From Myxococcota bacterium (GTDB taxonomy: Bacteria; Myxococcota_A; UBA9160; SMWR01): 64,000 nucleotides of DNA. Made by a program: the position numbers and the translations under genes. The stretch's first letter is position 1, and each line of letters starts with the position of its first letter. The notes below the pieces were generated by a model. It saw nothing but the letters and a program-made list of their open reading frames with translations, ran no database searches and was not told the origin of the DNA. The DNA is taken from contig JBCCEW010000022.1 in NCBI GenBank assembly GCA_039030075.1, positions 1 through 64,000 of the forward strand, written 5' to 3'. Positions 36,459-39,105 of this stretch are shown piece after piece.

Positions 36459-36732
36459 TCGCCTAGCGCGCACTCGGCGGCACACACCGCCGAGCCGTGC
36501 GTTCTCGCGGCACACCACGAACGGGGTCCCGTCCACGGGACCCGACGCCACCGATCTCCCTCGCAGCCCAGCGCGAGCGGGTTTCGGTACCATGGCGTTG
36601 GGACGCTCTCCGGGCGCCTGATCCGCGATCGGGCGCGTCTTCCTCGGCGAGCGTGCGTCTTCCCGACCGCACCGCGCGGACCCGAGAGGACGTCGACGAG
36701 TCGCATCCCACCCACGCTCGGAGGCCCGCCCG
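36459..36732 (+). other. Leader region between the XRE gene and ptsP
   Basis: This 274-bp stretch has no supported gene. All three forward frames lack a plausible coding start that joins ptsP; the ptsP frame itself is closed by a TGA at 36619-36621. The only clear signal is GGAGG at 36720-36724, 8 nt before an ATT in the ptsP frame. I see no good promoter hexamers. Confidence 0.6.
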
Positions 36733-39105
36733 ATTCCGGACCGGATCACACTGCTGGCAGACGTCGCCGAGATCGTCGCACGCTCGCACGATCTTCACGA
36801 GACGCTCGGCAATGTGGTCGATCTGGTCGGCAAGCGCCTCGATGCGGATGCCTGCTCGATCTATCTGGTCGAAGCCGACGTCACGCAGCTCACTCTCTCG
36901 GCGACCAATGGGCTGCACCGCGAGTCGATCGGCCGGGTCCGGCTGCCGGTCGGTCAGGGACTGGTAGGGCTCGCCGCGGCGCAACGCTCTCCGGTGGTGA
37001 GCGACGACGCGCAGACGCACCCGAGCTACCGCTACTTCCCCGAGACCGGTGAGGAGCGCTTCACGTCGCTGATGGCGGCTCCGCTGCTCGTCAAGAACGT
37101 CACCGTCGGCGTCCTCGTGGTGCAGACGATCGAGCAGCGGCGCTTCGAGCCCTTCGAAGTCGACGTGCTCCAGACCTGCGCGCAGCTGATCTCGCCGGTG
37201 GTCATGAACGCGCGCTTCCTTTCGCTGGTCGACCAGTCCGAGGAGGCCCTCGAGCGCGACTCGGAGGAGCTCGCGGCCCACGGGATTCCGATCGTGCGCA
37301 GCCCCGCCCCGCGCCCCGACCAGAACGTCGAGTTCAAGGGCCTCGGGACTTCGCGAGGCATCGCGATCGGGCGCATCTACCGGATGGAGAATCCGCTCGA
37401 TCTGGCCCAGCTCGAGTACGAGCCGAGCGCATCCGCGGACGCCGAGGAGCGCGACCTGATCCAGGCGATCTCGAGCGTCCGCCGCGACCTCGACGACAAC
37501 CGCGAAGAGCTCGGTGACCGCTTCGGCCCCGAGTTCTCCGCCGTCTTCCACACCCACATCCAGATCCTCGAGGACAAGGGCTTCGTCTCGAAGCTGCGCG
37601 ACGAAGTCGGCCGCAGCGCCAACGCCCGCGTGGCCCTGCAGAGCGTGCTCGGGGCCTACCGGAAGACCTTCAGCCGCATCGAGGACGCCTACTTCCGCGA
37701 GCGGATGAGCGACATCGAGGACATCGGCCGGCGCGTGATGGAGCAGCTCCTGGGCGATCGCGCCCAGCGCCCGCGCATGGAAGACGGCGCCATCGTCTTC
37801 GCCGACAACATCCTGCCGGGTCACTTCGCGCGCCTCGACCTCGAACGGGTCGGCGCCATCGTGTCCGAGCACGGTGGCTCGACCTCCCACGGTGCGATCT
37901 TCGCCCGCACCCTGGAGATCCCCGCGGTGACGGGCGTCTCCGGCCTGGGGGAGAACCTGCGCCCGGGCGAGCTGGCGATCGTCGATGGTGGCGAGGGGAC
38001 GATCTTCCTCTCCCCCGACGAGCACCTCATCACCGAGTACGAGCGTGCCCGCGAGCGCTTCGAGATCGCGGCAGAACACCTGGACGCGCTGCGCGAGGTT
38101 CCGGCCGAGACCCGCGACGGACGGCGCATCGCACTCACGGCGAACTGCGGGCTGGTCAGCGACCTGCGTCTGGTGGAGCAACACGGTGCCGAAGGGGTCG
38201 GGCTCTTCCGCACCGAGATGTTGGCATTCGCCCATCGAGGGTTCCCGGAAGAGGAAGAGCAGGAGCAGCTCTACGAACGGGTGGCCGGCTTCCTCGCGCC
38301 CCGCCCGGTCACGTTCCGAACCCTCGACCTCGGCGGCGACAAGGAGGTTCCCAACCTCGCCCTGCCCTACGAAGAGAACCCGCAGCTCGGTTGTCGCTCG
38401 ATCCGCTTGAGCTTCACCCACGAGGAGTCCTTCCGCGCGCAGCTGCGGGCGATCCTCCGGGCGAGCGCGCGCGGCAACGTGCGCTTGCTGCTGCCGATGA
38501 TCTCGTCGGTCGGGGAGCTGCGTCAGGCGCGCGAGATCGTGAACGACGTGATGGACCAGATGCGCGCCAAGGGCACCGCCTTCGACGCCGACATCCCGGT
38601 CGGCGTGATGATCGAAGTTCCCTCCGCCGCCCTGATCTCCGAGTCGCTGGCGCGCGAATGCGACTTCTTCAGCGTAGGGACGAACGACCTCACCCAATAC
38701 ACCCTCGCCGTCGACCGTGGCAACGAGCGCATCGCCCACCTGTTCGATCCGTTGCACCCGGCGGTCATCAGCCTGGTCGATCACAGCGTGCGCGCGGCGC
38801 GCAAGACGGGTATCCCGATCTCGATCTGCGGCGAGATGGCGAGCAACCCGCTCGCGGTCCCCATCCTGGTAGGACAGGGCATCGCCGAGCTGTCCGGACC
38901 ACCGAGCGCCGTCCCGATCGTGAAGGAGATCGTGCACGCCCTGGACCAGGGCGAGGCCGAAGCCGATGCGCGCCGCGCACGCGATGCGAGCTGCGCCTCG
39001 GAAGTGCGCGCCATCGGCGCGAGCAGACTCCGAGAAGCCGGACTCCTCGACCATCCGGATCTCGGCCCGTGGCTGCGCCGCCAGGTCGAGACCGCCCTCC
39101 GCTGA
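36733..39105 (+). CDS. ptsP: GAF-domain phosphoenolpyruvate-protein phosphotransferase PtsP (EI-Ntr), apparent AUU start
   Basis: About 790 residues: an N-terminal GAF domain (ITLLADVAEIVARSHDLHET through LISPVVM, about 1-160) and a PTS enzyme I module. The phosphohistidine is in GGSTSHGAIFAR, the PEP site in GVGLFRTEMLAF and LDLGGDKEVPNL, and the C-terminal motifs are IPVGVMIEVPSAAL, DFFSVGTNDLTQYTLAVDR and SICGEMASNPLAVP. EI-Ntr passes phosphate from PEP to NPr in a regulatory chain. The first GTG in frame (36814) falls inside the GAF domain, after the conserved first helix. Upstream to the in-frame TGA (36619-36621) there is no ATG, GTG or TTG. ATT at 36733 has GGAGG with 8-nt spacing and gives the full domain. 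An assembly error or a CTG start (36751) are alternatives. Confidence 0.88.
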   Translation: MPDRITLLADVAEIVARSHDLHETLGNVVDLVGKRLDADACSIYLVEADVTQLTLSATNGLHRESIGRVRLPVGQGLVGLAAAQRSPVVSDDAQTHPSYRYFPETGEERFTSLMAAPLLVKNVTVGVLVVQTIEQRRFEPFEVDVLQTCAQLISPVVMNARFLSLVDQSEEALERDSEELAAHGIPIVRSPAPRPDQNVEFKGLGTSRGIAIGRIYRMENPLDLAQLEYEPSASADAEERDLIQAISSVRRDLDDNREELGDRFGPEFSAVFHTHIQILEDKGFVSKLRDEVGRSANARVALQSVLGAYRKTFSRIEDAYFRERMSDIEDIGRRVMEQLLGDRAQRPRMEDGAIVFADNILPGHFARLDLERVGAIVSEHGGSTSHGAIFARTLEIPAVTGVSGLGENLRPGELAIVDGGEGTIFLSPDEHLITEYERARERFEIAAEHLDALREVPAETRDGRRIALTANCGLVSDLRLVEQHGAEGVGLFRTEMLAFAHRGFPEEEEQEQLYERVAGFLAPRPVTFRTLDLGGDKEVPNLALPYEENPQLGCRSIRLSFTHEESFRAQLRAILRASARGNVRLLLPMISSVGELRQAREIVNDVMDQMRAKGTAFDADIPVGVMIEVPSAALISESLARECDFFSVGTNDLTQYTLAVDRGNERIAHLFDPLHPAVISLVDHSVRAARKTGIPISICGEMASNPLAVPILVGQGIAELSGPPSAVPIVKEIVHALDQGEAEADARRARDASCASEVRAIGASRLREAGLLDHPDLGPWLRRQVETALR

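Follow-up and report, generated by a model that had tools for sequence, protein, structure and literature searches.

The window, i.e. the whole stretch of 64,000 nucleotides analysed here, carries on its forward strand the gene ptsP, which codes for PtsP (EI-Ntr). The following features were assigned at this locus:

36619–36621, + strand: in-frame TGA, upstream bound of the ptsP frame (reading-frame check)
36720–36724, + strand: Shine-Dalgarno (SD) sequence GGAGG, 8 nt 5′ of the ATT; a purine-rich tract lies at the equivalent place order-wide
36733–36735, + strand: ATT (AUU) start codon of ptsP, presumably read as formyl-methionine (order: ATT 62, ATC 10, ATG 5 of 77)
36733–39105, + strand: ptsP (EI-Ntr), 790 amino acids counted from the AUU, stop codon at 39103–39105 (translation, domain matches)
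36790–37194, + strand: GAF domain (Pfam PF01590), residues 20–154 counted from the AUU (Pfam; alignments with PDB 3ci6 and 3trc)
36814–36816, + strand: GTG, first canonical in-frame codon, internal and likely a mis-annotated start (frame reading, Pfam GAF comparison)
37336–37704, + strand: PEP-utilising enzyme N-terminal domain (PF05524; Pfam)
37780–37998, + strand: PEP-utilising mobile domain with the phospho-His motif STSHGAI (Pfam and translation)
38080–38940, + strand: PEP-binding C-terminal domain (PF02896; Pfam)

The ptsP frame is open from the TGA to the stop codon at 39103–39105. Re-reading of this frame gave the same result as the first-pass annotation, which had claimed that there is no ATG, GTG or TTG between the TGA and the GTG at 36814; this GTG is the first canonical codon of the frame, and a CTG lies in frame at 36751. 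The ATT at 36733 follows the GGAGG at a gap of 8 nt, so that ptsP displays an AUU at correct SD spacing and no usable canonical start. A codon-usage model trained without homology on the sampled 1.26 Mb of the window genome (1082 modelled genes) sets the onset of coding at 36721, which is 31 codons 5′ of the first canonical start.

Translated from the AUU, PtsP has its GAF domain in full, together with the three EI domains (PEP-utilising N-terminal, mobile, and C-terminal), which is the architecture of PtsP/EI-Ntr. PRK11061 matches over the full length with 510.9 bits, below its cut-off of 583, and TIGR01417 scores above its cut-off. The string STSHGAIFAR in the translation was recognised by eye and is presumably the TSH motif with the phospho-acceptor histidine of the mobile domain. 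The Pfam GAF model scores 64.8 bits and aligns from its position 1 when the protein begins at the ATT, versus 56.2 bits and alignment from position 10 when it begins at the GTG; the first nine positions and 8.6 bits are lost. In alignments with the solved PtsP GAF structures 3ci6 and 3trc, the match begins at query residues 10 and 6, respectively, and the GTG is residue 28. These comparisons support the earlier statement that the GAF domain needs residues encoded 5′ of the GTG. Since the homologues and the Pfam GAF domain on the one hand, and the codon-usage model on the other, provide two independent grounds, the region from the ATT to the GTG codes for protein. In other bacteria, the GAF domain of PtsP senses the ratio of glutamine to alpha-ketoglutarate, and PtsP heads the PTS-Ntr system (PMC13104625).

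Conservation of the start codon was assessed in a sample of 80 genomes of the order, which are MAG assemblies (where named, under Myxococcales, Myxococcota or Deltaproteobacteria) and fall into families f1–f11. The gene is present in 78 of these 80 genomes, with matches that start at the ATT codon (query residue 1) in nearly every case. Among 77 ptsP genes from separate assemblies, 62 start with ATT, 10 with ATC and 5 with ATG. Two of the 62 ATT starts are displaced by short insertions, each with an SD of its own. The alignment of related ptsP genes proposed by the first-pass annotation has thus returned a conserved ATT (62/77), with ATG at the same codon in 2/77; the other three ATG starts lie four codons upstream, in genes lacking the Ile codon. 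GTG, TTG, GTT and CTT were not found at the ptsP start in any of the 77 genes of the order. One ptsP copy (G034:C68:102049–104418) contains a single in-frame TAA.

Internal Ile codons of the same ptsP genes are ATC in 84% and ATT in 15% of cases. At conserved internal Ile columns, ATT occurs in 2/64, 2/60 and 7/74 genes (3–9%); a further column of lower conservation has it in 12/45. Within the 1.26 Mb sampled from the window genome, long genes use ATT for 6.7% of their Ile codons. Against this background, 62 of 72 Ile-codon starts are ATT (naive binomial p about 5e-41, the sequences being related). A quick ptsP tree, in which many rows are short and branches weak, gives an approximate count of 11 start-codon changes, all within ATT, ATC and ATG, four of them between an Ile-type codon and ATG. 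Codon counts, columns and tree alike indicate that the start codon is kept beyond background Ile codon usage.

Metagenome assemblies contain errors, and an ATG misread in sequencing or assembly had been named as a main alternative. However, the ATT is identical in 62 separately assembled genomes spanning nearly all 11 families, which leaves this explanation with practically no chance, and we reject it.

The sequence around the ATT changes sharply in character. In an alignment of 70 starts, positions −10 to −7 hold purines almost throughout and are rich in G, as expected for an SD, and codons −10 to −1 display no protein conservation beyond that forced by the SD. Codon 2 is Pro in 55/70, codon 3 Asp in 64/70 and codon 4 Arg in 70/70 genes, with freely varying third bases, so the N-terminus is indeed family-like, as had been proposed. 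An SD match of at least 5 bases precedes 49/77 starts, versus 5% of control positions. In 40 of the 72 Ile-codon starts, ATG, GTG and TTG are absent from the in-frame stop to the start, and in 29 that stop lies no more than 22 codons away. Canonical starts further upstream were considered as candidates and dismissed: they are in frame in 31/72 Ile-codon starts at places that are not conserved, and absent in the 40 with a stop in reach. The aligned genes hence present the pattern that a start codon would be expected to leave.

Could translation begin downstream, with the preceding stretch serving as leader? GTG is a canonical start, and CTG is known to act as a near-cognate one; the CTG at 36751 had been put forward as the other main alternative. 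Yet its column is CTG in only 24/70 genes and Ile or Val in 23, its distance from the SD is 26 nt, and the preceding P-D-R codons are conserved with synonymous variation. A start at the GTG at 36814 would remove part of the GAF domain that is contained in the solved PtsP GAF structures, and in several relatives the first canonical codon appears only 50–79 codons into the protein. We therefore reject the CTG and regard a start at either downstream codon as very improbable. Translation of ptsP starts at the ATT at 36733; order-wide conservation, SD and sharp coding boundary uphold this claim of the first-pass annotation, and we make it with high confidence.

No conserved hairpin or other control element was found in 70 ptsP leaders (mean folding z −0.3). 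Part of family f5 (L140, L142, L152, L161, L188) displays a strong GC hairpin ending just 5′ of the ptsP SD, which is absent in the window.

In the sister order within the same class, ptsP starts with ATG or GTG near the equivalent place, and in Binatia and Gammaproteobacteria ATG or GTG mostly lies nearby. Among the other Myxococcota sampled, no full-length GAF-EI match was found. Because these outgroups mostly use ATG or GTG, the AUU would most simply have arisen on the branch leading to the order. The excess of ATT over the Ile background, the sharp boundary and the outgroup starts together argue that ptsP initiation at AUU is ancestral in the order and maintained by selection, and is not a base error. 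A genome of sister family f12 (G086) holds, on a 3.7-kb contig (L219, G086:C178), an f1-like ptsP with 66% identity and an ATT start; this contig is probably mis-binned.

Weak starts occur in other genes of the same genomes. In infC, which encodes initiation factor IF3, the codon with the best SD, a strong one, is AUC in 20/30 genomes of the order, AUA in 5 and CUG in 3 (L189–L218), and an AUU start of infC was not found among these 30. The infC gene of the window genome (G000 C10:22425–22922, L211) is separate from ptsP. A phoH-like gene (G000 C2:32058, + strand, L289; relatives L290–L318) has CTG at one column in 26/30 genomes of the order; an SD-like tract precedes it, and canonical codons are usually out of reach. 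CTG makes up 38% of the Leu codons of the gene, and TTG predominates near the start column in the sister order. The start of ruvC (loci G000 C1:28046, L319; L341, L346) is mostly ATG in the order, CTG in the window genome and in G004, and ATT in two genomes of family f8. Among the 1082 modelled genes (1.26 Mb), a canonical start near the coding onset is seemingly missing in a handful. In three of these, no canonical start seems to be present, and a CTG or ATC stands at SD spacing:

G000 C18:33807, − strand: LGEFIGG-type protein
G000 C20:25905, + strand: TetR regulator
G000 C6:40373, − strand: TPM-domain protein

A general laxity of start selection in this genome was considered and set aside, as only the phoH, ruvC, TetR regulator, LGEFIGG-type and TPM-domain genes looked affected. 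Weak starts are rare and gene-specific, yet not unique to ptsP. Because infC with AUC, AUA or CUG and phoH with CUG stand in the same genomes, the identity of the weak codon is specific to the gene, and ptsP is one of a few genes with such starts. No match to pcnB above the cut-off was found in the window genome.

IF3 discriminates against AUU, AUC and AUA starts (PMC4611024), and AUU limits the expression of infC and pcnB in E. coli (PMC1780047, PMC9410913, PMC1805508). Position, identity, conservation and gene specificity of the start codon are computed results; what goes beyond them we infer from such knowledge. In the proposed mechanism, the GGAGG eight bases upstream would position the ribosome at the AUU at 36733, with which the initiator tRNA would pair imperfectly, inserting formyl-methionine as judged from E. 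coli infC and pcnB. IF3 would reject AUU complexes and PtsP output would be low; this output may also track the balance of free IF3 and 30S subunits. By analogy, sensitivity to IF3 or a pcnB-like limitation of expression is plausible for ptsP. Translation initiation is probably the stage at which the amount of PtsP is limited or tuned, and its synthesis would be sensitive to initiation conditions. The limited dosage of the first PTS-Ntr enzyme might then be what selection keeps; a weak start could plausibly be retained in order to restrict the enzyme that heads a phosphorelay. We consider it quite likely that the AUU start is placed by the GGAGG and kept by selection because it limits the amount of PtsP; for dosage limitation as the selected effect itself, argued from infC and pcnB, we express a slight preference. 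Against this explanation stand the lack of a conserved leader structure and the four switches on the tree between ATG and an Ile-type codon, which show AUU to be dispensable in some lineages. Changes from AUU to AUC occur as well, and the exact weak codon is not fixed in the order.

The AUU might instead be a neutral leftover: AUG was lost in an ancestor, translation was efficient enough, and the codon merely persisted. ATG is one mutation away from ATT, and isolated weak starts such as the CTG of ruvC exist elsewhere in the genome. However, a neutral Ile-type codon would be expected to be mostly ATC in these GC-rich genomes (84–93% of Ile codons), whereas ATT exceeds ATC by 62 to 10 across the eleven families, while nearby synonymous positions vary freely. 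We hold neutral persistence to be improbable.

Another explanation places ptsP in a set of genes that sense IF3, together with infC (AUC) and phoH (CUG). When IF3 is scarce or fidelity is lowered, PtsP would rise and PTS-Ntr would be tied to the state of translation. Gene-specific weak starts are conserved order-wide in infC, ptsP and phoH, and E. coli IF3 represses translation from AUU (La Teana 1993, as related in PMC4611024). On the other hand, some lineages have an AUG ptsP, the CUG of phoH mismatches the initiator tRNA elsewhere than AUU does, and no shared operon or leader emerged. We rate membership of ptsP in such a set as rather unlikely. We would give somewhat less credit still to the proposal that infC, ptsP and phoH form a translational regulon read by IF3 and initiation fidelity, which would link nitrogen/PEP signalling to the state of the ribosome.

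Limitation of PtsP dosage, the reading we prefer, has precedents of differing closeness. To our knowledge, very few bacterial genes need a start other than AUG, GUG or UUG, and infC is the main long-conserved one. The infC genes of E. coli and B. subtilis likewise combine AUU with a good SD and have conserved it over long evolution (PMC1805508, PMC9410913), unlike infC of this order with its AUC, AUA or CUG. Their self-feedback arises because the product, IF3, itself rejects AUU. A similar control of ptsP had been suggested in the first-pass annotation; infC-type autoregulation does not carry over, because PtsP is no initiation factor and IF3 is encoded elsewhere (C10:22425–22922). E. coli pcnB lies outside the initiation machinery, and its AUU restricts its expression (Binns and Masters 2002, as cited in PMC1780047 and PMC9410913); it differs from ptsP in gene and function, and the AUU of ptsP is conserved through an order. 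Gene-specific, evolutionarily conserved non-AUG starts of chloroplasts have been proposed as a layer of translational regulation (PMC9845219), which concerns an organelle and other genes. Other AUU starts deduced from reading frame and homology relate to single genomes, whereas ptsP is documented here by 77 genes with a codon-usage control. Our literature search found no report of an AUU start of ptsP, and ptsP joins the small class of conserved AUU-start genes.

In this group, gene finders limited to ATG, GTG and TTG will cut or misplace the N-terminus of PtsP and thereby damage its GAF sensor. With an AUU start kept order-wide in a signalling enzyme, and different conserved weak codons in infC and phoH, the idea that weak starts serve as a general device for setting expression is now testable.
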